In this document: piece by piece, positions 120 through 27,114 of the stretch
How positions within the stretch are numbered: the first letter of the stretch is position 1
How the letters are laid out: each line of letters starts with the position of its first letter
NCBI GenBank assembly: GCA_944326555.1
Contig: CALVEK010000021.1
Coordinates: 1 to 34,827 of the forward strand
Length of the DNA: 34,827 nt
Direction of reading: 5' to 3'
DNA from: Candidatus Gastranaerophilales bacterium
Lineage (GTDB): Bacteria > Cyanobacteriota > Vampirovibrionia > Gastranaerophilales > Gastranaerophilaceae
Translations under genes and position numbers: made by a program
Notes under the pieces: model-generated
The model's input: only the letters and a program-made list of their open reading frames with translations
Databases searched by the model: none
What the model was told of the DNA's origin: nothing

Positions 120-1433
120 TTATGACGAAAATTTTTCGGATAATTTAAACATATATCCGTAGTTTGTTTCATAAAAATTTAGCGCATATCTTGTTTCATC
201 CATTGTGTCATCGTTTTCTTTGAGTGGCGTGTCAGGGTCAGAAATAATATGTGTATCTTCATCAGTTTGAGGATATCTGTATAGCCCGAATTCTCTAATT
301 GTGTTTTTGCATCTGTCTTTGTTTATAATCAGTCGGTCGTAGTTGATTATGGAACGAACTATTCCTATACTGTCCACAACTTTGGGCTTTTTTTCGTGTA
401 CGATGATTCCGTTTAGTGCTTCTCTAAGTTTATGGTTTTGTTCAGGTCTAGCGTTGTCGCAGTTTATAAATCTGAAGTAGCGCTTATATTCTTTTTGTTT
501 GTCCAAAATCCATTTTATGACTTTATCTTCACTGATTTTTGAACCGTATAGTTCATCAATTTTGTAGTATTTTCCGCTTTTTGTTACTCCATAAAGACCG
601 CAAGACAAGGGGTGAATCCATCCCCAATCAAGCCCCAAGAAGTATTCGAAAAATTCGTTATTCTGAATTTTTTCGAGTATATTTTTGTGCGAACAGGTAT
701 GCTTTTCGATGGAAAATGTGTCATATACAAGGCCTTGGGCAACAATCCATAATCCTTTAATTTTTCGTGCTTCAAATACACCTCTGTATAATTTTTTTTG
801 ATTTTCTATAAAAGATTTGGAAAGATTGGCATTGTCCTCCATTGTAAAATGCCAGTAGTCAAAAATACTTCTTATATTTTCATCATTTTCAAGATAAGGC
901 TTTATTCTTTCTCTATACAACCAGTGGTTAGAACTTTCAGGGTTGCTGTCGGCAATAGCTCGTGCATTCTCAGGTGTCAGTCTGGATAAGGCCATGTTAT
1001 AAAACCCGTAATGATGTTTTGGCAGCTCATTTGCATACCAAAAATCCCAGGTGGCGCCTTGAATATTGGAATCGCTGTCAGATTTCCCGCCGCCGACGAC
1101 TAAGCAGTTATAAAGTTTGCCCCACAAGTTTATGTCTAGTTCTCCGCTTGCAGAATTGAATTTAACTTTTGCTCCATGGTAGTTCTTTAGATAAGGTAAA
1201 AGCTCGACAAGGACATTGTTTCTTACCGTGTTTTTTGAATACCCTGAAAAAACTTTTAAGTATTCATTACCCACAAAATTAAAGATTTGAGGGATTTTAT
1301 AAATTATTGAAAGAGTTTTTGCTGATCTTACCGCTCCATCACAAAGAGTGAAAAATTTCATGTCTTCCGGCTTTTTGCTCAAAAAAAGACGGTGCTTTTT
1401 ACTGTATTTAGATTTTGTCCAGTCAATCGGCAT
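120..1433 (-). CDS. terL: Phage terminase large subunit (PBSX/Terminase_3 type)
   Basis: This is the ATPase-nuclease motor that packages phage DNA into the prohead. Numbering from a GTG at 1448, there is a Walker A-like GAVRSAKT at about residues 38-45, a Walker B/catalytic segment WYANE at about 137-141, a coupling segment ADSNPES near 166-172, and the start of the RNase H-like nuclease, GLDWGWIHP, with a metal-binding Asp near 274. A length of about 437-442 aa is normal for the family. I prefer the ATG at 1433, which has GAGGG eight bases upstream; a GTG at 1448 is the in-frame alternative. The start overlaps the end of the small-subunit gene, so the two are translationally coupled. It is the last complete gene of the minus-strand phage operon in this window. 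Identification is strong; only the start is uncertain. Confidence 0.9.
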   Translation of the reverse strand: MPIDWTKSKYSKKHRLFLSKKPEDMKFFTLCDGAVRSAKTLSIIYKIPQIFNFVGNEYLKVFSGYSKNTVRNNVLVELLPYLKNYHGAKVKFNSASGELDINLWGKLYNCLVVGGGKSDSDSNIQGATWDFWYANELPKHHYGFYNMALSRLTPENARAIADSNPESSNHWLYRERIKPYLENDENIRSIFDYWHFTMEDNANLSKSFIENQKKLYRGVFEARKIKGLWIVAQGLVYDTFSIEKHTCSHKNILEKIQNNEFFEYFLGLDWGWIHPLSCGLYGVTKSGKYYKIDELYGSKISEDKVIKWILDKQKEYKRYFRFINCDNARPEQNHKLREALNGIIVHEKKPKVVDSIGIVRSIINYDRLIINKDRCKNTIREFGLYRYPQTDEDTHIISDPDTPLKENDDTMDETRYALNFYETNYGYMFKLSEKFSS

Positions 1434-1827
1434 TCTCCAATCCCTCACTCATTTCTTTTAGACTTTTTAAATATTCTTCCTGTGTACATATTTCATTTTG
1501 CTGTGCGTTTTTGTTTGTGCTCGAGGATGAAAGCGCTCTTTTTTCTTCTTCTGTACATACAAGTTTGTACAATGCCGCATTTAGTGTTGCGTTTGTGCTT
1601 TCAAACCATTTTGCTCTTAATTCTCTTTTTAGTTTTGCTCTGTTTATCTCTATTGCGTTTTTTATAACTTCTGATTCTTCCAATTTGTATTCATAAAAAT
1701 CAGATGGTGCTATATCCAAAAATGCAAATATTTCATCAACAAACGTAATATCGTTTTGAGTGATTATGTCTGCACAATCACTTGCTAACTTGTTGTATTT
1801 CGTTTTTGTGATTTTTTTCTTTTTCAT
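1423..1827 (-). CDS. terS: Probable phage terminase small subunit
   Basis: A 134-aa, Lys- and Asn-rich protein directly upstream of, and overlapping, the large terminase gene. Residues about 30-65 read like the DNA-binding helices of small terminases: a short helix, then PSDFYEYKLEESEVIKNA, resembling the 'Phe-Tyr-x-Tyr, then Glu/Lys-rich helix' pattern. A helix containing WFESTNATLNAALYKLV follows, similar to the oligomerisation helix. The C-terminal 40 residues are Ser/Asn/Gln-rich and may be disordered. Small terminases recognise the packaging site and stimulate the large subunit. The call rests mainly on position and size, with weak sequence resemblance. The start lies three bases after the upstream stop codon. 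Confidence 0.65.
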   Translation of the reverse strand: MKKKKITKTKYNKLASDCADIITQNDITFVDEIFAFLDIAPSDFYEYKLEESEVIKNAIEINRAKLKRELRAKWFESTNATLNAALYKLVCTEEEKRALSSSSTNKNAQQNEICTQEEYLKSLKEMSEGLENAD

Positions 1828-1830
1828 TTA

Positions 1831-2757
1831 TTATCTCGATCTGTAGTAGCTTTTTACTTTTGTTCCGTCTGAACGAGTGTAAGAGGCAACATGTACCATC
1901 CCGCCGCTTTTAACTGCTTTGTCAGCCTGTTCTCTTGTCGGGACACCTATTGTCCTTTTTTGATAGGCTATGGCATCTTTGTTCTTTTCTCTTTCTTCGT
2001 CGGACATTTCTTCTATATCTTCTTTTGTGAAAATTTTATTATCATTGCTTTTTTTATTTTCATAAGCACTTAAGTCGATATTTTCATCAAACTCAACTGT
2101 ACCGTTAATAATGTCCTTAACTCTTTTCTTTTTTGCTTCTTGCGGAGCTTTGAGTTCTTCTAATGTTACGTGTTTTGATTCTTTTTCCTGTATCTTTTGA
2201 GGTGATTCAGCGAGCCTTTGTGTGTACTTGGCAAGTTTTTCCTCTCTCATTCTTATTAATCTGTCTTTTAAACTTTCTGTGGTGTTTTCTGTTGCATTTT
2301 TTACCGCAGTCAATTTGAAAAGTGGATTGTTTAGCTTTGGGTCTGATGTTGATGTTGCTATTTCATTTTGAGATATTTTTTCAAATGCTTTTTGTGCTAT
2401 CAAATCTTCTATGCTCGACCAATTAATATTTTGGTCTATATCTTTGTATTCTGCCTTTATATTTTTGGCTATTTCTCTTCCGATTGCGTTATTCCATTCA
2501 TCCATGGATTTTTCTTCTTTTGGTTGGTATGTTTCTAATAATTCGTGTCCGGAAGTTGCAGCGTGTGATAGCAAATCACCATATTTCATAGCAAGATAAG
2601 CCGAGCCCCAGGCATGTCTAAATCCGTCTGTTGTGTCGTTCCAGCCACCGCTTGTGTTTTCAATACCCAATTCTTTTTGGTATTCAAGAGCTTTTTCTAA
2701 AATGTAGCGTTCTTCTTCCTGTTGCAGAAGCTCAAGTTTCTTTTTATAGTTTTTCAT
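1831..2757 (-). CDS. Phage-operon protein with DUF6973-like N-terminal domain
   Basis: A 308-aa protein. The first ~100 residues contain FRHAWGSAYLA and, further on, SHAATSGHELLE. These spaced His-Ala-Trp and His-Glu segments look like the DUF6973 family, whose function is not known. The centre (about 140-250) is charged and probably coiled-coil or disordered. The extreme C-terminus reads VHVASYTRSDGTKVKSYYRS, the short 'HVxxYTRxDGTxVxxYxR' tail found on many secreted or effector-like bacterial proteins. A good AGGAG site precedes the ATG. It sits between the metallophosphoesterase and the terminase genes, so it could be a minor virion protein, an injected protein or a cargo gene. The function is not assigned. 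Confidence 0.6.
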   Translation of the reverse strand: MKNYKKKLELLQQEEERYILEKALEYQKELGIENTSGGWNDTTDGFRHAWGSAYLAMKYGDLLSHAATSGHELLETYQPKEEKSMDEWNNAIGREIAKNIKAEYKDIDQNINWSSIEDLIAQKAFEKISQNEIATSTSDPKLNNPLFKLTAVKNATENTTESLKDRLIRMREEKLAKYTQRLAESPQKIQEKESKHVTLEELKAPQEAKKKRVKDIINGTVEFDENIDLSAYENKKSNDNKIFTKEDIEEMSDEEREKNKDAIAYQKRTIGVPTREQADKAVKSGGMVHVASYTRSDGTKVKSYYRSR

Positions 2758-2787
2758 TATTTACTCCTGTTTTATTTATAAAAAAAC

Positions 2788-2813
2788 GACTTCTTTTTTA
2801 AGAAGTCATTTTT
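2788..2813 (-). terminator. Rho-independent terminator after the metallophosphoesterase
   Basis: GACTTCTT (2788-2795), a four-base T loop, then AAGAAGTC (2800-2807). On the minus strand the hairpin is followed by a run of T (2781-2787 region), and it is T-rich on the plus side too, so it may work both ways. It separates the metallophosphoesterase from the DUF6973-like gene. Confidence 0.7.
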
Positions 2814-2858
2814 TATCAGATGTTTATCAAAATTTTGAGGTTATTTTTTCAATAATAC

Positions 2859-3686
2859 TTATTTATAGAAATCTACAACAATAATCTCAGGCAGGCAGTT
2901 AAATCTTACTGGTATTATGCTTGTACCTATCCCTTTTGAGACAATCATCTTTTTTTTGTTTTCTTCAATATATCCAAATGCATACTTTTTGTCGTAATCA
3001 GACGGAACTATTAAAGAGCCTAAAAAAGGAATGATGACTTGTCCTCCGTGAGTATGTCCTGCAAGCGTCAGAGTTACATTATTGGGTATGCTTGGGAATG
3101 TGTCAGGAGAGTGTGTTAAGAGTATAATAGGAGAATCTGTTTTGGGTAAAGTTTTTTTTACATCAGGTTCTCTTGTCATATAATCCTCGAGACCTGCAAT
3201 GAATAGGTTGCTGTTGTTGTATTTTAGTTTTATGTTTTCATTTAGCAGAACTTCGATTCCATTCTTTTCAAGTTCGGTTTTAACCAATTCTCCATTAAGC
3301 CACCAATCGTGGTTGCCAAGTATTGATATTGTTTTGTTTTTTGCTTTTATAAGCGATAATTTTTTTGCGATTTTATCGACAGGAAGAGTGTTTTCAAAAT
3401 TGTGCCCGTTTACAAAATCTCCGCCTAAAAGTACGATGTCTGCATTTTGGGAATTTATTTTTTTTATTATTCTATCTAGTTTTTTATCATCATTCATTTT
3501 TAGATGAAAGTCTGAGGCAAAAACAATTCTTAGCCCGCAAAGTTTTTCGTCTTTTATTTTGTAATGTTTAACAATCATTAATTGCGGTTCAACAAAAAAT
3601 GACCATAAACAGATAACAATGATTGTTATCGCAGCTAGGTTTATAGATTTTAAAATATATTTTTTAATTTTATTTGAATTGTTCAT
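2859..3686 (-). CDS. Membrane-anchored metallophosphoesterase (YkuE/YaeI-like)
   Basis: A calcineurin-like phosphoesterase with every signature block: ASDFHL, GGDFV, GNHDWW, LTHSPD and AGHTHGG. These supply the two-metal site. Near the N-terminus there is one hydrophobic segment (INLAAITIIVICLWSFFV) followed by EPQL, the usual layout of YkuE/YaeI enzymes that face the envelope; their substrates are lipid- or nucleotide-linked phosphodiesters. I chose the ATG at 3686 because it gives the usual family N-terminus. A longer in-frame GTG start at 3761 has AGAGG upstream and cannot be excluded. It is an unexpected enzyme inside a phage structural operon and has its own downstream terminator, so it is probably a cargo ('moron') gene. 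Fold certain, substrate unknown. Confidence 0.85.
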   Translation of the reverse strand: MNNSNKIKKYILKSINLAAITIIVICLWSFFVEPQLMIVKHYKIKDEKLCGLRIVFASDFHLKMNDDKKLDRIIKKINSQNADIVLLGGDFVNGHNFENTLPVDKIAKKLSLIKAKNKTISILGNHDWWLNGELVKTELEKNGIEVLLNENIKLKYNNSNLFIAGLEDYMTREPDVKKTLPKTDSPIILLTHSPDTFPSIPNNVTLTLAGHTHGGQVIIPFLGSLIVPSDYDKKYAFGYIEENKKKMIVSKGIGTSIIPVRFNCLPEIIVVDFYK

Positions 3687-3793
3687 ATAAATATTAATAT
3701 TACATTTATGGAACAGATAATTTATTATATTTGCTGTTTTGTTTTTTGATTTTGCCACCACCTCTTTCTTATTGTGTAAAAATCTTACCCTGT

Positions 3794-3826
3794 ATCCGAA
3801 AAGACATCCAATGTGCCTTTTCGGAT
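3794..3826 (-). terminator. Hairpin downstream of the tail-tube gene
   Basis: ATCCGAAAAG (3794-3803) pairs with CTTTTCGGAT (3817-3826) across a 13-base loop. It lies 22 bases after the tail-tube stop codon. The T run after it is poor, so it may be a weak terminator or an mRNA-stabilising hairpin. Confidence 0.5.
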
Positions 3827-3847
3827 TATATCGGGCGCTGTTTAAAG

Positions 3848-4444
3848 CTAAGCGGTTTCGTCTGTAGTTGCTGCTAAATCGGTAGCTTTAGAGTGTATTT
3901 CTATGTCAATTAATTTTGTTTGTTTGCTGCCTTCTGCACCGAATTCGTGTTCAGTGTATACGCCTTTTCCGTCAAAAGTGAAAGTTGCAAAATCATCTTG
4001 TACACCGTTTATTGGGATAGCTGTAGCTTTTGCTTTATAAATGCAAAAATGCACATCTCCACCATCGTTACTTGTATCAAGAATTTGGGCTTTTAATTGG
4101 AAGTAGTTTGGTAAATCGCCGCCGCCAAAACTAAATGTACCTACAGCACTATCATCTTCACCGGAAGTTGTATAGCTGCCGCCTGTGAGTTGAGCAAGTA
4201 CTTCCAAGCTGAGTTTTGCGTATTCCATATTGAATGTTACTGATTTGATTTTGTTTGATACTTCCAAAACCTTTTCATCACCTGTTAGTGATTTTTCTTC
4301 CATTTCGTAAGTTAATGAAATCTGTCTTACGCCCGGAAGATCAATCCCTTCTGCACATGTGAATCTTTCTGCAGAATCTTCTGTAACAGGGAATAATTTT
4401 GCATCATCTACACCGAAAAGTTTTGTTACTGTTTTGAGTGCCAT
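3848..4444 (-). CDS. Phage major tail (tube) protein
   Basis: A 198-aa, acidic, beta-rich protein that follows the head-tail completion genes, the normal place for the tube subunit of a long-tailed phage. It begins MALKTVTKLFGVDDAKLFPV. The middle holds beta strands with TFSFGGGDLPNYFQLKAQIL, and the end has the alternating pattern of tube proteins (FATFTFDGKGVY). Tube subunits form stacked hexameric rings on the tape-measure core, but no tape-measure gene is seen downstream here. AGGAG lies before the ATG. The call is by size, composition and context. Confidence 0.7.
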   Translation of the reverse strand: MALKTVTKLFGVDDAKLFPVTEDSAERFTCAEGIDLPGVRQISLTYEMEEKSLTGDEKVLEVSNKIKSVTFNMEYAKLSLEVLAQLTGGSYTTSGEDDSAVGTFSFGGGDLPNYFQLKAQILDTSNDGGDVHFCIYKAKATAIPINGVQDDFATFTFDGKGVYTEHEFGAEGSKQTKLIDIEIHSKATDLAATTDETA

Positions 4445-4453
4445 TTTTTTCTC

Positions 4454-4825
4454 CTATCTGTTATAAATAACGGTTACGTCCAGTTGATAAGCGTGTCTTT
4501 GTGAAAGGTCTTTTTCTTGATAAGACGGCCCGCTGTTCAAAATTATGTGTACTAATTTCCCGTTAATGGATAATGCTTTTTGAAAATTGTCCTCAGGAAA
4601 AAGAATATCGTGTATTGCAAAACAAGTGTTTCTTGCATCTTCAAGGCTGTTATATTTGACCGCAATATTTATTGATGCTTTTCTTGCCAGATCACAGGGG
4701 TTATGATTGTAAAGTTTTAGGATAATAACGTCTTCACCTGTATTTGAGTCAAAGTCAAATTTTATTTTTTCTTCTTTTGCAATGTTGTTATTTACTATGA
4801 GACTTTTTAAATCGTCTAAAATCAT
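4454..4825 (-). CDS. Phage tail terminator / minor capsid-type completion protein
   Basis: A 123-aa protein between the head-closure and tail-tube genes. The pattern (short N-terminal helix, beta strands with VIILKLYNHNPCDLARKA and INIAVKYNSLEDARNTCFAI, then a final strand ending LDVTVIYNR) fits the small alpha/beta tail-completion proteins called minor capsid proteins in Gram-positive phages. It would cap the tail tube and join it to the head. AGGAG precedes the ATG and the next gene begins about 10 bases downstream. Sequence signal is weak and the order supports it. Confidence 0.6.
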   Translation of the reverse strand: MILDDLKSLIVNNNIAKEEKIKFDFDSNTGEDVIILKLYNHNPCDLARKASINIAVKYNSLEDARNTCFAIHDILFPEDNFQKALSINGKLVHIILNSGPSYQEKDLSQRHAYQLDVTVIYNR

Positions 4826-4881
4826 TTTTACTCCTAATATTTGGAATTATGTTATAGTTTGCTTTGAATTGGTTTAAAATT

Positions 4882-5190
4882 TTATGCAAAATAGACTTCA
4901 TTTATGGCGCAGAATGTTTCTGTAAGTGGATAATAGGGTGTTACATTAACTACTTTAAATGCTTTACTTTTTGTTTCTATTATGTCGTCAACTTTAACTA
5001 CGGATTCCGTAAATAGCCTTCCTGATGAAGTTATTTCTTGTCCATAAGAATTGACCGTAAGAGCATTTTTGAATTCTATTTTGCAATCAATTTCATCAAG
5101 TGCAATGATATTTGGGCGTCCGTTTTCGTCTGTGCCGTCTACTGTCTTTAAGACAGCTGTATCTGTTAGCATATTGCTGTAATATCCCAT
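4882..5190 (-). CDS. Phage head-closure / head-tail joining protein
   Basis: A 102-aa, beta-rich protein in the third position after the capsid gene, matching the stopper (SPP1 gp16-like) family in size and place. Features include LKTVDGTDENGRPNI near the N-terminus and KSKAFKVVNVTPYYPL near the end. This is the usual 'x-D-x-x-Gly-x-x-x' then 'V-x-x-V-x-P' layout of head-tail joining proteins. Such proteins plug the portal/adaptor and dock the tail. AAGGAG lies eight bases before the ATG. Confidence 0.6.
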   Translation of the reverse strand: MGYYSNMLTDTAVLKTVDGTDENGRPNIIALDEIDCKIEFKNALTVNSYGQEITSSGRLFTESVVKVDDIIETKSKAFKVVNVTPYYPLTETFCAINEVYFA

Positions 5191-5248
5191 ACTTCTCTCC
5201 TTAATTTGTTGAGTGATATGTTAGTTGATTGCAGTTTGGGATTTTGTT

Positions 5249-5692
5249 TTAGCCTAAAACAAATCCTTTCTTGAGCCATTTATTAATAAGATATTTTGCA
5301 GTTGAAGAAAATAATTTTCTTTCTTCGTGAGATAAACTCTGATTTGCATAAGATATTGAACCTACGCCAAGACTTATCGATGAGATGTTGTTGGATTGAT
5401 TTTTTATGTGTATGTCATTTGATTTGTTTATTAATTCGATAGCTTCTTCGCAAACAGCATCTTTGATATCTTGCGGCAAATCGTAATCTCTTGGGAAAAC
5501 CATTGGTTGGTTTTCTGTAAGAGGATTTCCGACAAAGTCAAAAGCATTCATTTTTTTACTGGCAGTAATCAATAGTTTTTGCTTGTTTGCTTCATCAAGT
5601 TCAAACCATTTGTCGGAATCATATCTTTCTTCAAAATACAATTCTGCATCTTCGAGAGTAATGAGACTGTTTTTGTATAGTTCGATAGTCAT
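5249..5692 (-). CDS. Phage head-tail connector (adaptor) protein
   Basis: A 147-aa, mostly helical protein directly after the major capsid gene. It starts MTIELYKNSLITLEDAELYF and contains KWFELDEANKQKLLITAS, then FPRDYDLPQDIKDAVCEEA. This 'a.a/aY..R..s..W..a.....a.L..A...ld' layout is typical of gp6/gp15-like connectors, which form the ring under the portal. GGAG precedes the ATG at normal spacing. Confident as to class because of motif and position. Confidence 0.75.
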   Translation of the reverse strand: MTIELYKNSLITLEDAELYFEERYDSDKWFELDEANKQKLLITASKKMNAFDFVGNPLTENQPMVFPRDYDLPQDIKDAVCEEAIELINKSNDIHIKNQSNNISSISLGVGSISYANQSLSHEERKLFSSTAKYLINKWLKKGFVLG

Positions 5693-5755
5693 AGTGTTTC
5701 TCCATAAAGAACAGATAGGGCATTTGCCCTATCTGTATAAGATAAAATGTAATAT

Positions 5756-6715
5756 TTATCCGCCCATTTCTTCTGCAGCAGGTGCTAAAATTGCGAAAGG
5801 ATAACGATTTTCTGCTCCTTTTCTGCTTACTGGGTTCGCTATTTGAACACCTAATCTCATCACGCAGCGCAAAGCAACCATATCTTGTTGAGCAAGGTTG
5901 TAGGCGATAGAACCGTCTGTGTTTTGAATAATAGCCTGATCAAGAACTTTGTAAGTGATATCTTGGCGTATTGAGTAAACTGCTTTTGTGAAATCACCTG
6001 CGATAAGCAGCGCTTTAGAAGGGTCAAAAATACCTGTTTCATCGTATTTCATAGGTCTTCCAACAAGGCTTACAGGCATTTCGGAAGTCAGCCCAGGTGT
6101 GTATAAAAGCTGATTGTTTTTGTCTCTGAGGTTTCTGAATTTTGCTTCTAATTTGCTGTCGGCATAGAATCCTGTAACTTTGTATCCGCAATCTTCAACT
6201 TTTGACATTACACCGCCTTCACCAATGATATCACCCGCAATATCTTCATTTGTTCCGAGTTCTACAGTGTTACCTTTGGAAATTGCCTCTGTAACAATTG
6301 CTTCAGGATAAGTTGACGGCTTATTTACTCCAAAGAATACGGCTTCGTCGATTGCTACACCGAATGCTTCAACAATTTGCGGTTGAATTTCATCCCACAT
6401 GCTGTATTGTGCATCTTCAAAAACAGCTTCGGGAATGGGTACAATTACTGCAATTTCTTCTGCAGTAAGAGTTAATTTATCCCATTCTGCATTAGTTGTC
6501 TTTTTCATATCAGTATCGCCGTTTAAGAAATACGCAGTCGGTAAAGTGGAAGCAATTGGTAATGTTTTTTGTTTAGCACTCATGTTTGGCAATTGTTTAA
6601 ACAATGATAATGCTGCAGAAGCCTGTGGTACATTTTTTATAATTTCTGAAGAAGTTTCTACGGGAATAAGAGCTTCTGCATTAGAACGAGAAATAATTTT
6701 TGCATCTAGTGTCAT
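5756..6715 (-). CDS. HK97-fold phage major capsid protein
   Basis: A 319-aa protein with the hallmarks of the HK97 family. The N-terminal arm segment reads IISRSNAEALIPVETSSEII, then come E-loop-like strands (PIASTLPTAYFLNGDTD), the spine-helix region (VPIPEAVFEDAQYSMWDEIQ) with AIDEAVFFG, and late strands of the A domain (LIAGDFTKAVY, ALRCVMRLGVQI). There is no long N-terminal delta domain, so scaffolding is probably supplied by the separate gene just upstream. A strong AAAGGA site precedes the ATG. It would form the icosahedral shell. Confidence 0.88.
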   Translation of the reverse strand: MTLDAKIISRSNAEALIPVETSSEIIKNVPQASAALSLFKQLPNMSAKQKTLPIASTLPTAYFLNGDTDMKKTTNAEWDKLTLTAEEIAVIVPIPEAVFEDAQYSMWDEIQPQIVEAFGVAIDEAVFFGVNKPSTYPEAIVTEAISKGNTVELGTNEDIAGDIIGEGGVMSKVEDCGYKVTGFYADSKLEAKFRNLRDKNNQLLYTPGLTSEMPVSLVGRPMKYDETGIFDPSKALLIAGDFTKAVYSIRQDITYKVLDQAIIQNTDGSIAYNLAQQDMVALRCVMRLGVQIANPVSRKGAENRYPFAILAPAAEEMGG

Positions 6716-6750
6716 TATTTTTTCCTTTCTGTTTAGTAAATTTTATCTTT

Positions 6751-7344
6751 CTATCTGCCGAGGGCTGCTCTAATATAGGCATCCATTCTTTGTGATGGCG
6801 AAAGATTTTTTCTTCCGGAGCTTTTGAATGTTCCTCCGAAATTTTGTTTAGGGGTTTTAAAAAGAAATTTGTTTTCTTCTTTGTACTTTTCGATAAAAGA
6901 ATCAAGATTTTCACATTCTTGGGGAATATCTTTTGCAACAAGCTCACTTTTTATGCAACCGGCTTTATCCAGCTTGCGCATAATAATCAGATTTCTGTTG
7001 TTTGCTCTTAATTCTTCCAACTCTTTTTGAATCTCTTTTGCTTTTTGAGTTATTGCCAGTTTCTGAGATTCTTCTGTTTTTGAAGCAACACGGTATTTTG
7101 CAGCTTCTTTTCGAAGTTTTTCAATTTCCTTTTTCATAACCTCTGTGTTAGAGCCTCTGAGAAGCATATCCATTTTTTGTGATGGAGAGAGCTTTTTGCC
7201 AAGCTCATGTGATTCTAGCTCAGAGACTTTTTGTGAATCAGAATCTTCTTTTTCAATACCTGATTGTTTTAAGGATTCTGTTTTTTCTGTAGTGCTAAAT
7301 TGGGCATTTTTTGCACTAAGATTTTCTTCCTGTGTACCTGACAT
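6751..7344 (-). CDS. Phage capsid scaffolding protein
   Basis: A 197-aa, highly charged, helical protein immediately upstream of the capsid gene, as expected of a DUF4355-like scaffold. Residues about 65-120 form a Lys/Glu-rich coiled coil. A motif LSPSQxMDxxxR occurs twice: at about 52-63 (LSPSQKMDMLLR) and at the C-terminus, 181-192 (LSPSQRMDAYIR). The C-terminal copy is where scaffolds usually bind the capsid protein, so the second copy suggests two contact points. AAAGGAG lies before the ATG. Assignment is by composition, motif and position. Confidence 0.75.
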   Translation of the reverse strand: MSGTQEENLSAKNAQFSTTEKTESLKQSGIEKEDSDSQKVSELESHELGKKLSPSQKMDMLLRGSNTEVMKKEIEKLRKEAAKYRVASKTEESQKLAITQKAKEIQKELEELRANNRNLIIMRKLDKAGCIKSELVAKDIPQECENLDSFIEKYKEENKFLFKTPKQNFGGTFKSSGRKNLSPSQRMDAYIRAALGR

Positions 7345-7421
7345 AGGAACTCCTTTCTTTTGTTGACCTGTTGGTGCTCAGGTCTTTTATAGCGTGTAAA
7401 TAGGTAGAAATATTTGCAAAA

Positions 7422-7445
7422 GAAAACGGCACTTAAAAGTGCCGT
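7422..7445 (-). terminator. Rho-independent terminator ending the LprI cassette
   Basis: ACGGCACTT (7426-7434), a two-base AA centre, then AAGTGCCGT (7437-7445): a perfect inverted repeat. On the minus strand it is followed by TTTTCTTTTG. It separates the secreted-protein cassette from the scaffold gene. Confidence 0.75.
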
Positions 7446-7551
7446 GTATAATAGCTGGATTAAATCAGAAGGATTGTATCATCTGATTTTGCTATTTTTG
7501 CATGTACTTTCTGAAAAAAATTAATGTATTTTCCGTTTTAATAATTTTTAA

Positions 7552-8091
7552 TTATCTTTTTTCGACATAAGATTTTTTACTCTTATCATAAGTAAGAACT
7601 ATAGGTTTTTCGGAGTTTATAGAGGAAACCATTATATTGTGGTAACCGTCTGTTTTTTCTTGCAATATATTTATATTGTTTTGGGCATCAAAATATAAGT
7701 CTTTTGAGATTAGAGAATATTTTTTATTTTCTTTAGGGTTGAATTTTAGGATATACAATAAACAATCCCCCATTCCTGATAGTGAGGTTGCATAATGTGT
7801 TCCAATGATTTCTCTTGTTCCGTCTTCATTCAAATCATAGAAAAAGCCTGCTGTATCGTTTTGGTAAATTTTGTGAATTGCTGCATTTTTAGAACACAAC
7901 TTTATATGTTTTAAAATCCAATTCCACAAAAGAACTGATGCTTCATCACCGTTTTTAACCGATTTTAGACAAAAAGATGTAGCAATTAAAGTATCATCTT
8001 TTTTTAAATCAAAAGCCGATGTAGCGTAGACCACGAATAATAATATTGTCAGGATTGTAATCGCTGTTAACTTTAATTTTTTCTTTGTCAT
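7552..8091 (-). CDS. Secreted protein of unknown function with Asp-rich loop
   Basis: A 179-aa protein starting with a clear export signal: MTKKKLKL, then a hydrophobic stretch (TAITILTILLFVVYATSA). The mature part has YDLNEDGTREIIG, a DxNxDGxxE loop like those binding calcium in FG-GAP/EF-hand-like proteins, followed by beta-type segments. The start codon lies inside the preceding LprI-like gene, giving an 83-base out-of-frame overlap. I keep this start because the signal peptide begins exactly there. The gene shares promoter and terminator with its neighbour, so the two probably act together in the periplasm or at the envelope. The family is not recognised. Confidence 0.6.
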   Translation of the reverse strand: MTKKKLKLTAITILTILLFVVYATSAFDLKKDDTLIATSFCLKSVKNGDEASVLLWNWILKHIKLCSKNAAIHKIYQNDTAGFFYDLNEDGTREIIGTHYATSLSGMGDCLLYILKFNPKENKKYSLISKDLYFDAQNNINILQEKTDGYHNIMVSSINSEKPIVLTYDKSKKSYVEKR

Positions 8092-8509
8092 CGTCGGAGA
8101 AAGTTTGGATATAATACAATCTTAATGCTTCAGCTCTGCTTTTTGCGAGATTCTTCTTTTGGTCTGCTCGAAAAATCAGTCTGTCCTTTGTTTCATAGTT
8201 TTCGTTGTACAAAGAATTTATGACTTTGATTTCATTATTCTTGTACATTGTCCAGTATTTTTGGTCTTCAAAAAGAGCTGTCTTTGCATCACCTGTTAAC
8301 TTTTTGTACAAAAGAGAGTAATATTTATCTACTTCTCTGTTCCACGCTTTGGATGCGTTATATGTACATTTTGACCATTCTTCAAGGGTTTTTGCTTTTT
8401 CTTTGCAAACACTTTCGTCTTTGTCAATCGGATGCACAAAAACTTGTTCGCATTTTACGAAACTTGATGTTAAACAAAGTATTAAGCAGGTAAGTAAAAA
8501 TTTTTTCAT
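8009..8509 (-). CDS. Secreted LprI-like (DUF1311) protein
   Basis: A 166-aa protein with a signal peptide (MKKFLLTCLILCLTSSFVKC) that has a Cys at its end, so it may be a lipoprotein. The region after it resembles the DUF1311/LprI domain: C-x19-C spacing (SVCKEKAK...WSKCTYNAS), WNREVDKYYSLLYKKL in place of the family's 'ad.eLN.vY..l', and ALFEDQKYWTMYKNN in place of 'L..aQraWi.fRd'. In Mycobacterium, LprI inhibits lysozyme; here that activity is only an inference. There is no Shine-Dalgarno site, and a promoter at 8516-8544 would start the transcript at the ATG itself. It lies between portal and scaffold and looks like a self-contained cargo gene. Confidence 0.7.
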   Translation of the reverse strand: MKKFLLTCLILCLTSSFVKCEQVFVHPIDKDESVCKEKAKTLEEWSKCTYNASKAWNREVDKYYSLLYKKLTGDAKTALFEDQKYWTMYKNNEIKVINSLYNENYETKDRLIFRADQKKNLAKSRAEALRLYYIQTFSDDDKEKIKVNSDYNPDNIIIRGLRYIGF

Positions 8510-8515
8510 GTCTAA

Positions 8516-8544
8516 ATGATACAGTATTGTATTTTATATCGCAA
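8516..8544 (-). promoter_or_regulatory. Promoter for the LprI cassette, with internal dyad
   Basis: On the minus strand a TTGCGA -35 (8539-8544), a 17-base spacer and a TATCAT -10 (8516-8521) place the transcription start at about 8509, the A of the ATG. The spacer carries ATACA-N4-TGTAT (8519-8532), a possible repressor site. Confidence 0.5.
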
Positions 8545-8587
8545 GTAATCCTATTACCTATTTTGCGGTGTATGATTTTTCTCTGCA

Positions 8588-10018
8588 TTAATTTATTGTT
8601 TCATTTTTATTTTTATTTTCTTTTTCTTTTTCTTTTTCTTTTTCTGGAAAGTCCTTTGTTTGCTCTGATAATGCATTTTCATTATTAATTCTTGCAAGTT
8701 CTTTTAGTGCGTCTTCTTCCGATACTTTGTCGAGAGTAACAATCGTTGTCAATTTACTTTGTGTGCCTGCTGCGACTCGGCTGTTTTCTGTTGCAACAAG
8801 CTCTGAGTAATCTGCAGGTATAGGTTCACCCCAAGCAACGTTTACACTTTTTACTGGCGTTGAGTTGAATGCCATTGCACAATTGACAACATTTTGGATT
8901 GCAGAGGTAAAAGATACCTGTTTTATATCATCAACTTTTGATAGGGCTGCAATAAATATTTTTCTTAGACTTTCTCCTGACATATTACCGGCTATGTTTA
9001 GTCCGTAGGCTTGAGGCGGAGTTTTTGTAAGTATATAGAAAAAGTTTAATAATGTATCAACGTGTTTTTGTATCGCTTCGGCTTGCAAATCTGCTGTGAG
9101 GTATTCGGGTTTGATTCCATCAGTACCTATTTTTATAAAATCTTTGTCAGGGAATTTTCTCGTGTTTGTAACAGGATCAAATTCCAGATTTTGCTCGCTT
9201 CCTGAAAGTTTCGGGTTAGCGTGTCTGTTTATAATTTTGGAGTTTTGGCTGATAGTCAGCATAATTTCTTCTACAATGGATTTGCATCTTTTATAATCGC
9301 TTTCACCAAAGTATGAATCACTTTCTGTTGTGTTTTTTACAGGGAATACAAGAAAATCATTCCATAAATGAGAAAAATCCTCGTAAGGTACGGTATTGAA
9401 TTGTTCAAGTTCATTTTCATCCAGTTGTCTGTTTAATGTATTGTTTGTACAAGTCCAGATTTCGTTTTCGACATAGCCTTTATAGTGTTTTTCGATTTTT
9501 TTAAACTCTTTTTTTACTCCGTTTTCTATTATTTCCAAAGGGTAGACTAGAATGTGTCCGAGAATATTATTAAGATTGCCTTGGTTGAATACAGGAATCC
9601 AGCATTCCGGGCTTACGGAAAATATTTTTACTTCATTTTCTTCTAAGGCTACTTTAAATATACCGTTTCCAAAACGTGAGTTATCAATGTATACTTCTTT
9701 TAACACTGATATGAAATTATTCTTCTTTGCAATTTCATCCCAGATTTTCTGTTTTGAATCGTCAACATTTACGGTTATTCCTTGATTTGTCAAGAAACCT
9801 TTGAAAAAGTCTGTTAGTGCCCAGAATAGGTTAATATTTATGAGTGATTGTGCGGTAGTGTTATCAAGAGGATAACGTTTTCTGATTTTTAACACAGTCG
9901 AATTAAAGGCTCTGTTAAAGTTTCCGTCATATAAATCTTTGTATTTATTGTATTTTCCCAGTCTTTCAATGGTGTCAGAATCATATCTGATATTTTTTAT
10001 ATCGAAGTTTGTGAACAT
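8588..10018 (-). CDS. Phage portal protein (SPP1 gp6-like)
   Basis: A 476-aa portal subunit; twelve copies form the DNA gateway at one capsid vertex. The N-terminal part has YKDLYDGNFNRAFN and, later, NLFWALTDFFKGFLTNQGI (wing). The middle contains YFGESDYKRCKSIVEEIMLT and the stem/clip-type segment INRHANPKLSG. Near the C-terminus LNIAGNMSGESLRKIFIAAL matches the conserved portal helix. The tail is a run of alternating Lys/Glu and Lys/Asn encoded by a hexanucleotide repeat. I chose the ATG at 10018, which has GAGG five bases upstream; a TTG start eight codons earlier is the alternative. Confidence 0.85.
   Translation of the reverse strand: MFTNFDIKNIRYDSDTIERLGKYNKYKDLYDGNFNRAFNSTVLKIRKRYPLDNTTAQSLININLFWALTDFFKGFLTNQGITVNVDDSKQKIWDEIAKKNNFISVLKEVYIDNSRFGNGIFKVALEENEVKIFSVSPECWIPVFNQGNLNNILGHILVYPLEIIENGVKKEFKKIEKHYKGYVENEIWTCTNNTLNRQLDENELEQFNTVPYEDFSHLWNDFLVFPVKNTTESDSYFGESDYKRCKSIVEEIMLTISQNSKIINRHANPKLSGSEQNLEFDPVTNTRKFPDKDFIKIGTDGIKPEYLTADLQAEAIQKHVDTLLNFFYILTKTPPQAYGLNIAGNMSGESLRKIFIAALSKVDDIKQVSFTSAIQNVVNCAMAFNSTPVKSVNVAWGEPIPADYSELVATENSRVAAGTQSKLTTIVTLDKVSEEDALKELARINNENALSEQTKDFPEKEKEKEKENKNKNETIN
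8615..8644. repeat. Hexanucleotide microsatellite in the portal C-terminus
   Basis: Four perfect TTTTTC units (8621-8644) preceded by a near copy. On the coding strand the unit is GAAAAA, which encodes the Glu-Lys tail of the portal protein. Slippage by whole units would keep the frame. Confidence 0.8.
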
Positions 10019-10084
10019 TTTTACCTCATTTTCTTTTGTCAAATGTGAAATATTTTGTTTTTTTATGGGGATAGAAAAGAATAA

Positions 10085-11416
10085 TTAAACTTTTATAACA
10101 AGTTCATTGTACATTTGAGGGAATCCTCTAAAGTTTTGCTCATTGCCCAGTTCTTTGCACCTGTCAAAAGTTCTGTCGCATTCTGTTTCTTCTCCTGTAT
10201 AACCACATCTGCAATCTTTAAATCTTCTTACTTGGCAGGTTGTCCGATATTTCATAACAGGAGCTTGCACTTCGTATCCGCCCAGTGATGTTTCTATGTC
10301 CATGGATGCATTTTCGTAATCCAGTTTTAGATTATTGCATCTGCCTGCATAAAGTATTTTTTTGTAATCAGGAATTAACTCATTAGTGTTTAAATCGAGG
10401 AAAACCAGCGTTAAGACTGCAGGTGCATTTGTTATTACATCTCCTCGTTGACCTATAATTCCTGAGATTGCAAGTCCGACATTGGATAAATTAATGTTGA
10501 GCTTTGAGACACTTGAATTGTCATCTTTTTTTATTTCATCAAAGGTCAACGGTGCTCCTATATAGTTCTCTCCATTGTATTGAAGTGAATCAAGAGTTTC
10601 ATTGTCTAAAACATAGATAGAACCGCCGCTTAGTTCTATTTTTAATAGTTTCCTAGGTATTATTTCATCTTTTTCCAGCTCATTAAAAGGACTAACGGTT
10701 GGAAATACCTCTTTGAGTTCAATTTCCATTGCTCCAAATCCGTATGAATCCACGTTTACATCCAAGATATCGGAATCAAATCTTACATTGTATGTTTTAC
10801 CGTCTCCGCCAAGTTCTTTTTTCCATTCCCATTCAAAAGAACGGAAGCGTCCCCTTTTTGCTATAAAGAAATTTTCAAGCTGTTGTCTTGTTTTTGCGTT
10901 TTTTTCAAATTTTAATTTCCAGCTTTTTTTAGGTAAATCCCAGTAGGATTTCCTTTCATTTCTGGACGTAAAAACCTTGTCGACTATCGTATAAAAATTT
11001 ATGGAGGAATCACATTCAACATTGTGATAAAAATCAAGAGAAGCAACTTGTTCAACCGGAGAATCATCAATACAAACAAGTTCAAGTTCAGAATCGGAAA
11101 AACCAAAGTCTTTAATGTTTTGTTTAAAGCTATCGGCATTAAATGTGCAAAGATAGGTTTTGCCGTTTCCTCCTTTATTTTTATTCCATAAAAATTCAAA
11201 TTTTCCTGATTGCCCCATTACACTTATAAAAAAATCTTCAAGCTGTTGTCTTTGCTTGAAGTTTTTGTCGAATTTCAGCTTAAAGGTTCTTTTAGGGTAT
11301 GTCCAAACAGGGTAGCGTTGCTCATGACCTTTCATTTTTTCATTTATTTGCGTATTAAACTCTATAGAAGTTGTATAGGCCTCTTTGTAAGGTATGTCAA
11401 AAATAGGATATTCCAT
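10085..11416 (-). CDS. Fused phage tail-tip protein: two Dit-like domains plus gpL/BR0599-type hub domain
   Basis: A 443-aa protein with an obvious internal duplication. Residues about 17-116 and 137-236 align with each other: KRTFKLKFDKNFKQRQQLEDFF against KKSWKLKFEKNAKTRQQLENFF, then GGNGKTY against GGDGKTY, then FGFSDSELELV against YGFGAMEIELK. Each copy resembles a DUF2460 (distal tail) domain. From about 255 on, the sequence resembles the DUF2163/BR0599 hub, ending in a Cys cluster (Cys394, 402, 404, 413, 420) and NFRGFPQM, as in lambda gpL and gene-transfer-agent hubs that carry an iron-sulphur cluster. AAGGA precedes the ATG. It should sit at the tail tip. The fusion of domains that are usually separate genes is unusual. 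Confidence 0.75.
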   Translation of the reverse strand: MEYPIFDIPYKEAYTTSIEFNTQINEKMKGHEQRYPVWTYPKRTFKLKFDKNFKQRQQLEDFFISVMGQSGKFEFLWNKNKGGNGKTYLCTFNADSFKQNIKDFGFSDSELELVCIDDSPVEQVASLDFYHNVECDSSINFYTIVDKVFTSRNERKSYWDLPKKSWKLKFEKNAKTRQQLENFFIAKRGRFRSFEWEWKKELGGDGKTYNVRFDSDILDVNVDSYGFGAMEIELKEVFPTVSPFNELEKDEIIPRKLLKIELSGGSIYVLDNETLDSLQYNGENYIGAPLTFDEIKKDDNSSVSKLNINLSNVGLAISGIIGQRGDVITNAPAVLTLVFLDLNTNELIPDYKKILYAGRCNNLKLDYENASMDIETSLGGYEVQAPVMKYRTTCQVRRFKDCRCGYTGEETECDRTFDRCKELGNEQNFRGFPQMYNELVIKV

Positions 11417-21817: not shown

Positions 21818-23475
<1,658 letters not shown>

Positions 23476-23877
23476 AGTAAAAAAATCCTTTGATATTTCT
23501 GTAATTAACCTTTTTATTTTTACTTATTTTTCAAAAATTACAAGTAAGTTCAGTGGATTATTTTCCGTAAGATTTCAGCCAAAATACCATAGTATAAAGT
23601 CTTTTTGTCTAATATATTTCAAATCAAAAACTAAATAAAAATTATAAAATCTAGTTCAAATCACTATAAATAAAAATTCTTCAAAAATATGTATATATAT
23701 ATTCTAAAAAGCGTCGTAAACGTAGTCGGCTCTTGAAAGCCTTGTCTAACAAGGGTTTTGCCATGCTTTGAAACGTAAGATTTTTGTTTTGTAGGTGTGG
23801 TTTTTGATGTAGTCTCAAAAAATAAAGCCGCATTTTTGCGGCTTTTATGTCAATATATATATCAAATCTGAAATTTC
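23476..23877. other. Intergenic region between the two recombinase genes
   Basis: About 400 bases, very AT-rich in the first half and without a credible gene. At 23740-23754 is the inverted repeat CCTTGT-CTA-ACAAGG inside a stretch of higher GC (about 23711-23775). This could be a recombination site or the junction of two nested elements. A terminator closes the right side. The promoter of recombinase 1 must lie in the left half but is not clear. Confidence 0.5.
23824..23848 (-). terminator. Terminator of recombinase 2
   Basis: AAAGCCGC pairs with GCGGCTTT over a seven-base loop (23824-23846). On the minus strand it is followed by TTTATTTTTTG; the plus side also has a short T run, so it may act both ways. 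Confidence 0.8.
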
Positions 23878-25353
23878 TTATCTTTTTCTAATTTTTCTAA
23901 ATGCTGATTTGAATGTCATCTTTAATCTGTTACCATCGCTTTTAAATACGTTAGATACTAAACTAAGAATTTTTTGCTTAGTAATAGTATCAAAACTCTC
24001 AAAAACGTCATAAAGACTGTTCTCAAAGGCTTCACTGACTTTTGCATTTACTGTTTCTAATTGCTTTTCTGCTACATAGATTTTTGAGTCTAAATCTCCA
24101 TATTTTTCATTTATATTGGCTAGTTTACCTCTAATATATTGTTCATCTGTAATATTTTTTCTAGTTATATCTTCCCAAGCTTGCCTTTCTGCATTGTATT
24201 TATGGCTTTTGCTTCTTTTTAGAATTGCTAATTTTTGTGTGTGGGAATATAGTTCATTTTTTAAGACATTTTTCACAATTTTGTTAGGAATAAGTCCCAA
24301 ACGAATCTCTTTAAGATATGTTTTTAAGTCATTATCAAGTATCGTTTCACTAATACAAACACGATCATTGCATTTAGGATTTGTACAGCGATAGTATACA
24401 TATTGTTTGCCATTATGTTTCTTCTTGACATCAGCTGTCATGCAGTGTCCACAGGTTATACAAGTTAGAAGTTTTGAATATTTAAAGTTGTATTTACGAG
24501 GGGCTTTGGGAGCTGAATCAAGAAAATTTTGAACTTTTTCAAAAAGTTCTTCCGTAATAATTGGTTTATGATTACCAGCTTTATATTCATCAACTTGTTT
24601 TATGTGGTATTTACCTGTATAGAAAGGATTTTTCAATATAGATATAAGAGATTGCTTTGGAATGATTTGGGATTCTTGTAGTTCGTACATAAAACCCTGA
24701 CGATATAATTCATTTGCCAGTTCAGAAATTGTGTAGTTTCCTGTTGCGTATAGTTCGAATGCTTTTTTTACAAAATTTGCTCTTTTTTCATTAATTACGG
24801 CAGTTCTTTTATCTCGTGGCCCATCATTTTCGTATCCATAAGGCGGTCGGCATGGGCGAAAACCTTTCAGTGCTTTTGCAAGAATTCCTGCTTTGCACTT
24901 TTCGTTGTCTTGTCGAACTCTGTAATTTGAAACACCGAGAATTGTATCTAACATTAGCATTTCATGTGCCCTAATTGGTGTTTGTAAAATAAGATTTTCT
25001 TGAACAAATACAGCTGTCAATCCTTCTTCTTGTACAAGTTGTAAGATTTTGTAAGCATCTATAGGGTTTCTTGACATTCTATCTATAAATGCAAAAATAG
25101 CTACGTCTGCAACTCCATTTTTGAGCTTTTTTATTACCTCATTGAACATAGGTCTGGTCTCAGGCTTCATAGCACTTCCGTCTTCTTTGTATATTGATTC
25201 GATATTCATATTGCATTTTTTTGCAAAATTTATACATAATATTTCTTGGTCATTCAAAGACGTATTTTCAGTTTGCTCTTTGCTTGAAACTCTACAATAA
25301 ATTATACAAGTAGCATTTTTTATATTATTTAGTTTGTTATTGTTTTGATTCAT
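23878..25353 (-). CDS. Large serine recombinase 2
   Basis: A 491-aa serine recombinase, distinct from its neighbour. The resolvase domain carries the Ser nucleophile in YCRVSSKEQTEN and FIDRMSRNPIDA. The recombinase domain has CRPPYGYEN and an Arg/Lys-rich hinge. The zinc ribbon has CITCGHC and CTNPKCNDRVC. A coiled-coil C-terminus ends in a basic tail (FKSAFRKIRKR). AAGGA precedes the ATG. The ATPase gene stops 63 bases upstream on the same strand, so they may share a transcript. Two full-length recombinases in tandem suggest nested insertion or a two-recombinase element; which one moves the island cannot be decided here. Confidence 0.9.
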   Translation of the reverse strand: MNQNNNKLNNIKNATCIIYCRVSSKEQTENTSLNDQEILCINFAKKCNMNIESIYKEDGSAMKPETRPMFNEVIKKLKNGVADVAIFAFIDRMSRNPIDAYKILQLVQEEGLTAVFVQENLILQTPIRAHEMLMLDTILGVSNYRVRQDNEKCKAGILAKALKGFRPCRPPYGYENDGPRDKRTAVINEKRANFVKKAFELYATGNYTISELANELYRQGFMYELQESQIIPKQSLISILKNPFYTGKYHIKQVDEYKAGNHKPIITEELFEKVQNFLDSAPKAPRKYNFKYSKLLTCITCGHCMTADVKKKHNGKQYVYYRCTNPKCNDRVCISETILDNDLKTYLKEIRLGLIPNKIVKNVLKNELYSHTQKLAILKRSKSHKYNAERQAWEDITRKNITDEQYIRGKLANINEKYGDLDSKIYVAEKQLETVNAKVSEAFENSLYDVFESFDTITKQKILSLVSNVFKSDGNRLKMTFKSAFRKIRKR

Positions 25354-25416: not shown

Positions 25417-27114
25417 CTAAACTTCACTGTAGTCTTCAAAATTTCCGTTGAAGGGTTGCTGATGTTTAGCTTTTTTTACAATTTCTAGCAAATATTCTTC
25501 TTTTGCTATATTGATAGATATTGTTTTTCCAATATCCATTGTTTTCCTTTTTGTATCAAAGCGACTATCTGCTTCAACATAGTTACAGAAGTCTGCCATT
25601 GTCAGCATTTTAGTGTCATCATTAGCAAACAAAATATTGAATTTATCAATGAATTTTCTTAAGTTGAGACGCAATATGCTATCTTGGATTAGTTTATAGT
25701 GTACATTATAGTTGAGTTCACCATTGTCTATAAGTTTTGATATATGTCTCAACATCAGGTCTGAATTTTTGACTTTAGATTCTAAATATTCTTCATAGCT
25801 ATTGCTGTAGGAAATAGCCATTTCTTTCCAGTCAAAGAGTTCTTCTCCCAAAATATGATTAACTAAAAACCAAGTAGAACAGGAGATAGCTACGCTTTTT
25901 AAATATCGATCTTCACTGTAATTTTGTATTTTTTGGCTTAAAATTTCATAAACCTTTTTGTATATTTGAATGATATGACCTTTATAGCTAAGTAAAAGGG
26001 GCAAAATAAGCGATAACTCTTTTCGTGTATTTTCTGTAAAATATTTGAATTTTTTCGAGTTAAAATTTGCCTTTTTCATATTTACAAATAAAGTACGTGA
26101 TAATAATGCTTCACTTGGGTTTACAAACTTGTAATTAGATGTGAAAACACAGGTTGTACATATAGAAATTTTTTCTATATTTGTTTTTGTCCCTCTTTCT
26201 CGTGGTATAGCACTATATAAATTTTTGACTAATTCTTCAACATCTTTTTTGAAAAAAGTTTGAGATAATTCCTCAATAAATACTGGTACGCTAATTCTTT
26301 TATTTAGTTCTGTTGATATAGCAAAAGGAGTCGATGTGCCCGATAATATACAACTATCTGACAGACCAAAAATTGAGGATAAACAGTACATTAGTGTACT
26401 TTTACCTGAGTGAGATTCTCCTAAAAAGAAAATTGCAGGGAAACCTTTGATTTCTTCTTGAAACGTATTCCAATAAATTACACTAAGAGCTGCACCAAAG
26501 CATAAAAGAGCTTTTTCATCACAGAAACATTCTTTTATGTTCTTGAAAAAATCACTTGCAATCTGTTTAATATTTTTTTCTGTGACATAAAGTTCTGGGC
26601 GACAGTTGTTGTTTATATCTATTAGGCTATTTTGTATATCATCATAATTTTTGCTTTGATCTAATTTTTGTAAATAATGAATTTTAGAACTATTGTAATC
26701 AAATGTAGCATTTTTCCAAACATAAGTATCCGATTGGTCCCCTCCGCAAGCAAATATGCTTCTAATGGGTGCATTTTCATTCAGTTTTTGCCTAAAGCTC
26801 TGAAATTGTTTATGCATAATACCCATATTCAGGTTTGTTGTATATTTGCTTAGTGCTGTAATAAATGTACGATAATCTATCAATTCTGAACCTGAAAATA
26901 AAGCAAGTATAGGTAATTGCTGTCGTGAACTATATAGTCTTAGTAGGAGTTGTTCTTTATTTTGGTTTAATGGAAATCTATTGTCTTTCTTGATTATTTT
27001 GGCAACAGGTTCAATTTTTAACGTTTCATCGTAGTTTTCAGGTTGTTCGGTTTTTTCTTCATTTGTTGTTTTAACTACAACAGGTAATAGCAGTTTATTT
27101 TGAGCGTCTTTCAT
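25417..27114 (-). CDS. SF3/DUF927-like replication ATPase of the mobile element
   Basis: A 565-aa protein whose centre is a P-loop ATPase: Walker A GESHSGKST (232-240), Walker B SVPVFIEELS (275-284), a polar sensor stretch VFTSN (323-327) and a candidate Arg finger in SEALLSRTLF (about 335-345). This layout resembles the DUF927/superfamily 3 helicases that replicate plasmids, phage satellites and integrative elements. The N-terminal 200 residues have no clear primase motif. A strong AGGAGG (27121-27126) lies six bases before the ATG, and the gene overlaps a 43-aa gene upstream. The likely job is to unwind or replicate the excised island. Helicase activity is inferred, not shown. Confidence 0.65.
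   Translation of the reverse strand: MKDAQNKLLLPVVVKTTNEEKTEQPENYDETLKIEPVAKIIKKDNRFPLNQNKEQLLLRLYSSRQQLPILALFSGSELIDYRTFITALSKYTTNLNMGIMHKQFQSFRQKLNENAPIRSIFACGGDQSDTYVWKNATFDYNSSKIHYLQKLDQSKNYDDIQNSLIDINNNCRPELYVTEKNIKQIASDFFKNIKECFCDEKALLCFGAALSVIYWNTFQEEIKGFPAIFFLGESHSGKSTLMYCLSSIFGLSDSCILSGTSTPFAISTELNKRISVPVFIEELSQTFFKKDVEELVKNLYSAIPRERGTKTNIEKISICTTCVFTSNYKFVNPSEALLSRTLFVNMKKANFNSKKFKYFTENTRKELSLILPLLLSYKGHIIQIYKKVYEILSQKIQNYSEDRYLKSVAISCSTWFLVNHILGEELFDWKEMAISYSNSYEEYLESKVKNSDLMLRHISKLIDNGELNYNVHYKLIQDSILRLNLRKFIDKFNILFANDDTKMLTMADFCNYVEADSRFDTKRKTMDIGKTISINIAKEEYLLEIVKKAKHQQPFNGNFEDYSEV

Follow-up and report, generated by a model that had tools for sequence, protein, structure and literature searches.

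The Dit-Dit-hub protein described here, encoded in a phage-derived element of a Gastranaerophilales bacterium, combines a duplicated distal tail (Dit) domain and a gpL-type hub in one chain, and it most likely acts as a trimer with a ring of alternating D1 and D2 domains. This reading is built on the order of the domains, their predicted folds, their conservation and a complementary retention of residues in the two Dit copies. The gene lies at 10085..11416 on the minus strand of the window, i.e. the whole stretch of DNA that was analysed (34,827 nucleotides), which is an entire contig that ends just past the gene of the large terminase (TerL). It is a single open frame of 443 amino acids without internal stops, its ATG is preceded by an AAAGGA-type ribosome site, and full-length homologues are found in many genomes. 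An assembly error as source of the fusion can be ruled out, as the fusion is seen in more than 30 assemblies.

All domains are encoded on the minus strand: the first Dit-like domain, D1, comprises residues 1-124 (11045..11416), the second, D2, residues 125-245 (10682..11044), and the gpL/BR0599-type hub residues 246-443 (10088..10681). The original prediction had placed two copies of about 100 residues at 17-116 and 137-236, which agrees closely with the alignment of residues 16-113 to 137-234, a gapless match with 42 of 98 positions identical (43%, BLASTP E 3e-27), and the repeated blocks RQQLEDFF/RQQLENFF and GGxGKTY that it had pointed out are indeed present. The Smith-Waterman score between D1 and D2 is 221, as compared to 31 +/- 5.4 with a maximum of 61 in 1,000 shuffles. 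Each copy alone exceeds the Pfam cut-off for DUF2460 of 30.4 bits (D1 31.7, D2 36.8), both align with the single Dits of Gastranaerophilales (hhalign 99.8-99.9%), and structure and residue retention further support their assignment. That D2 could be a portion of the hub is ruled out, as D2 matches single Dits and the hub has no similarity to D1 or D2. For the C-terminal 198 residues, the Pfam matches are weak and remain below the cut-offs (Phage_BR0599 with 20.2 of 22.9 bits, Phage_tail_L with 18.0 of 25 bits), and their assignment as hub draws also on fold matches and on the alignment with single hubs. The attachment part of the hub covers residues ~251-383, and four cysteines (C394, C404, C413 and C420; 10157..10237) are invariant across 30 fused and single hubs. 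From this invariance, and from a comparison of the pattern with JBD30 gp50 and the RcGTA hub, the motif is a probable metal or Fe-S site.

The alignment behind the full-length AlphaFold model was shallow, with 34 sequences that share 47-82% identity with the protein encoded in the window, and the model is of moderate confidence (mean pLDDT 75.6, pTM 0.72); the linker between D2 and the hub (residues 242-248) and the cysteine region are modelled with very low confidence. In this model, the order of strands and helices is identical in D1 and D2, and the fold is of the tail-tube type, with the distal tail proteins of JBD30 and Chi as matches (Z 16-17). As a single rigid body, D1 and D2 together can be superposed on the distal tail protein of JBD30 (8rk3_D; Z 16.7, 236 residues, 2.9 Å) and on that of Chi (8vjh_B; Z 16.4, 238 residues, 3.0 Å), the latter being also the only PDB match of D1 with E <0.001 in phmmer. 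The N-terminal repeats, whose predicted structure had been named in advance as a possible refutation, thus came out as Dit-like. The hub was predicted separately with a broader alignment (pLDDT 72.2, pTM 0.57), and its best 10 matches are all hub or baseplate proteins of the tail tips of siphophages and RcGTA (Z 10 to 12.8), namely from Sf11, RcGTA, T5 (two entries), lambda (gpL), T1, JBD30 (chain O, which judged by its size is probably gp50), R4C, Chi and DT57C. No protein in the PDB matches the whole Dit-Dit-hub chain, and in BFVD, where the best TM-score by query length is 0.44, none spans the full model.

The fusion is present at 34 loci of GTDB, including one that is clipped by a contig end; nearly all are named Gastranaerophilales or uncultured bacterium, and some IMG/VR contigs carry the fusion as well. 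The three-part form occurs in the genera g1, g18, g19, g21, g33 and g38, all of one family, and its frame is intact in 20 of the 23 genomes of the genus, the window genome counted. The search for this architecture that had been proposed as a check gave no match in 50,697 phage records (tblastn), and neither did a first scan of viral contigs with a single protein sequence as query; outside the phage-derived elements of gut Gastranaerophilales, the fusion was not found. One member of the same family (G041) and other families of the order have a single Dit gene of 117-124 amino acids followed by a separate hub gene, and the proposed order Dit, Dit, hub is therefore backed by these genes of relatives as well as by profiles and the predicted structure. 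One fusion (L074, 10001-11329) is located in a genome named Candidatus Onthoplasma (Bacillota), which is probably misnamed or a mixed assembly. In another family (L045, 9496-9711, G093:C5), 72 residues share 74% identity with the start of D1, and the surrounding 20 kb hold no further match to structural genes of the element. A 461-residue BR0599 hub of another lineage (L269, 1744-3126) carries an N-terminal extension of 200 residues that resembles the C-terminal part of PHROG 1082, and this may be an independent fusion of one Dit to a hub (1:1).

A tree of 51 domains places all D1 domains in one clade and all D2 domains in another (support 100/100 and 100/99), so that one duplication plus fusion can explain all members; the sequences fit a single such event for all fused proteins. 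D2 is placed among the single Dits in this tree, and D1 is on a long branch. The 39 near-invariant Dit positions, defined from 23 single Dits, are distributed unevenly between the copies: 13 are retained in both, five only in D1 (F6, Y10, G30, E32, Q33), and eight only in D2 (D146, W166, W196, D205, V211, R212, L218, V237). D1 has kept the N-terminal segment and the GxEQR loop of single Dits, D2 their WxW, GGD and VRF positions. Judged by the alignment offset, the GxEQR loop of D1 may lie roughly at the place of the hub-contacting loop 193-214 of JBD30. As a sequence pattern, this complementary retention fits a specialisation of the two copies for odd and even positions in a ring.

The closest structural counterpart is found in JBD30, where gp49 is a trimer whose subunits each contribute two beta-sandwich domains side by side round the tail axis, which reduces the sixfold to a threefold symmetry, while gp50 is a separate protein in which Cys147, 156, 238 and 245 surround a putative metal ion (PMC11445458). 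In both systems (JBD30: PDB 8rk3), there are two tube-type domains per distal-tail chain and a gpL-like partner with four cysteines below. They differ in that JBD30 uses two proteins, and in that gp49, with ~9% identity to D1-D2, has large extra domains that are missing from D1-D2, whereas the hub of the fusion lacks the long insertion that gp50 has between its cysteine pairs and is part of the Dit chain. In effect, the fusion protein is the core of JBD30 gp49 joined to gp50. The distal tail protein of Chi (PDB 8vjh_B) shares the two-domain core, but of its 557 modelled residues none form a hub, and a hub-like chain (8vjh_D) is separate. D1-D2 is 9-14% identical to the JBD30 and Chi proteins, against 43% between D1 and D2, and this low sequence identity may point to a separate duplication for D1 and D2.

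By the proposed mechanism, three chains would form a single assembly, in which six Dit domains, D1 alternating with D2, would make up a ring beneath the last sixfold disc of the tail tube. The three hub domains would lie below this ring and bind a J-like protein that is encoded by a separate gene, and the step from sixfold to threefold would be set by the covalent linkage together with the divergence of D1 and D2. We infer the trimer, the ring, its contacts and the Fe-S site for the Dit-Dit-hub protein, and a pseudo-hexameric ring built from a trimer is supported indirectly, by model and analogy, because D1 and D2 superpose as a unit on JBD30 gp49, which is a solved trimer. It is unlikely that cleavage between D2 and the hub follows the synthesis of the whole chain and leaves two working parts, the tandem Dit and the hub, like gp49 and gp50: the very low model confidence at residues 242-248 would be as expected for a flexible or cleavable stretch, and JBD30 does use two separate proteins, but the linker region at residues ~246-258 (E-KDEIIPR) is strongly conserved among fused proteins, no protease gene was recognised beside the fusion gene, and, given the separate genes of relatives, it is hard to see what would be gained from a fusion that is cleaved. 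Six chains with D1 and D2 as two stacked sixfold rings and the threefold step elsewhere are quite improbable; it is true that domains of the tail-tube type form stacks of successive rings in tails, but D1 and D2 are predicted to be arranged as in JBD30 and Chi (236-238 residues at ~3 Å), with the domains side by side round the axis, and six fused hubs would disagree with the known threefold hubs. The trimer with an alternating ring is preferred.

Also in other systems, the parts of the fusion are known in a different arrangement. In lambda, gpM and gpL are encoded by separate genes, with one Dit domain per chain; each copy of the fusion has a gpM-like fold, and its hub is gpL-like (8iyk_L, Z 10-11.6). 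The tail tube protein pb6 of T5 has a duplicated tube-type domain, and its trimeric ring imitates a hexamer, but it belongs to the tail tube rather than the tail tip and has no hub. In YuA, a gene of 556 amino acids overlaps a hub gene of 270 amino acids, and from its size and position the larger product may be a two-domain Dit. The gene transfer agent RcGTA meets the same mismatch with a hexamer of Dits, in which odd and even subunits differ in the conformation of loops that contact the hub and the megatron (PMC7296036). Its g12 and g13 resemble the fusion in the Dit fold, in a hub that combines an attachment domain with four cysteines (an Fe-S site in RcGTA), and also, by the present model, in a threefold baseplate below a sixfold tail, but the six Dits are identical single-domain proteins, and Dit (g12) and hub (g13) are encoded by separate genes (PMC7296036). 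The original prediction knew of no described example, and this stands for two Dits fused to a hub but not for two Dits per chain, which JBD30 and Chi have. Two Dit domains per chain and the pseudo-hexameric principle are already known, the latter because a trimer of two-domain chains has been published for JBD30 gp49, and it is the covalent Dit-Dit-hub chain that looks new.

Downstream of the fusion, the same strand encodes structural and terminase proteins. These are the portal protein (8588..10042; PHROG 533, E 2e-35), a scaffold-like protein (6751..7344; Pfam Phage_scaffold below the cut-off, E 1.8e-6), the HK97-type major capsid protein (5756..6715; Pfam Phage_capsid, E 3e-27), a head-tail adaptor (5249..5692; PHROG 477, E 7e-17), a probable head-tail connector (4882..5190; PHROG 793, weak with E 8e-4), a probable neck protein (4454..4825; PHROG 913, weak with E 0.003, position conserved), the major tail protein (3848..4444; PHROG 4971, E 3e-25), a small terminase candidate (1423..1827; conserved beside TerL, PHROG 309 only with E 0.1), and TerL (120..1448; Pfam Terminase_6N E 9e-8, PHROG 5653 E 1.5e-23). 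Between portal and scaffold, at 7552-8509, there are two overlapping small genes whose place is kept in many relatives, one of them LprI-like (lysozyme inhibitor family), and a calcineurin-like phosphoesterase is encoded within the structural cluster at 2859-3761, with a homologue on the opposite strand in G006 and G022. Farther away, at 21818-25353, two serine recombinase genes are found beside a tRNA-Ile (21818-21894), into which the end of the first frame runs, and with a DUF927 protein encoded at 25417-27114, the region resembles an integrated element of its own. The J, NlpC-like, tape-measure-like and lysozyme genes are on a different contig of the same genome; window positions 120-11416 and G000:C23 (L184) together hold a complete set of phage-like structural genes, and nearly every genome of the genus has such a set at a conserved site.

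DUF308 and host genes flank the cluster of G012, which is ~19 kb long, and inspection of its list of reading frames by eye recognised no integrase, repressor or replication gene. U32/pilus genes and DUF308 are located beside or around the cluster in G000, G012, G014 and G020, DUF308 adjoins it in G006 and G009, and the gene order within the cluster varies between species. Capsid, TerL and J genes are each present in 22 of the 23 genomes of the genus and in 18 of 18 high-quality ones, the genes of the element are single-copy in 22 of the 23, with flanking genes common to several, and median dN/dS values (fusion 0.08, TerL 0.03, J 0.07) indicate purifying selection. A decaying prophage whose gene builds nothing any more is very improbable, as the frame is intact in 20 of 23 genomes, selection is purifying and capsid, TerL and J persist, even though the order of the structural genes varies between species, other genes are interspersed among them, and integrase or replication genes were not recognised in G012. 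Distances of element genes correlate with those of RpoB (Mantel r 0.65-0.72), but only 4 of 10 splits overall, and 3 of 7 strong RpoB splits, are shared, and a strictly vertical inheritance of the element is not established. PilB was dropped as host marker in favour of RpoB, as in close pairs its synonymous distances greatly exceeded those of RpoB.

Gene transfer agents (GTAs) are characterized by genes that are resident in the genome of the host and frequently spread over several loci, by a mostly vertical inheritance with co-diversification with the host, and by a particle that is too small for the whole gene set and delivers host DNA to other cells (PMC9662315). The element resembles GTAs in its persistence, in its selection and in that no mobility genes were recognised. 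It is conceivable, if on balance doubtful, that the cluster is an undescribed host-domesticated GTA of the Gastranaerophilales, with an origin unrelated to the alphaproteobacterial and Brachyspira GTAs and with a short tail whose tip would consist of a single Dit-Dit-hub trimer and the J protein. Its tape-measure candidates have ~280-324 amino acids, and in G014 (L186/L187) and G001 (L192), two different ones of ~312-324 amino acids occur within one and the same element. The fusion as such is ruled out as a GTA trait, as it occurs also in elements with long tape measures (643 amino acids in L088, 924 in L188). The latter element has a reverse transcriptase gene (RVT_1, 4191-5327) beside a fibre gene, and a simple direct-repeat search found no pair of template and variable repeats. 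A search of the accessible literature yielded nothing relevant on GTAs or prophages of the Gastranaerophilales lineage.

The fusion represents a genetic answer to the mismatch between sixfold and threefold symmetry at the tail tip, in which the ring domain has been duplicated, the copies seem to have specialised, and the pair has been joined to the hub. Seen alongside JBD30 and Chi, it raises the possibility that the tandem-Dit solution arose more than once, and as a small, expressible candidate trimer it would allow a direct test of the mismatch. Should the element prove to be a GTA, domesticated particles for DNA transfer would extend to an uncultured gut lineage that is related to cyanobacteria.
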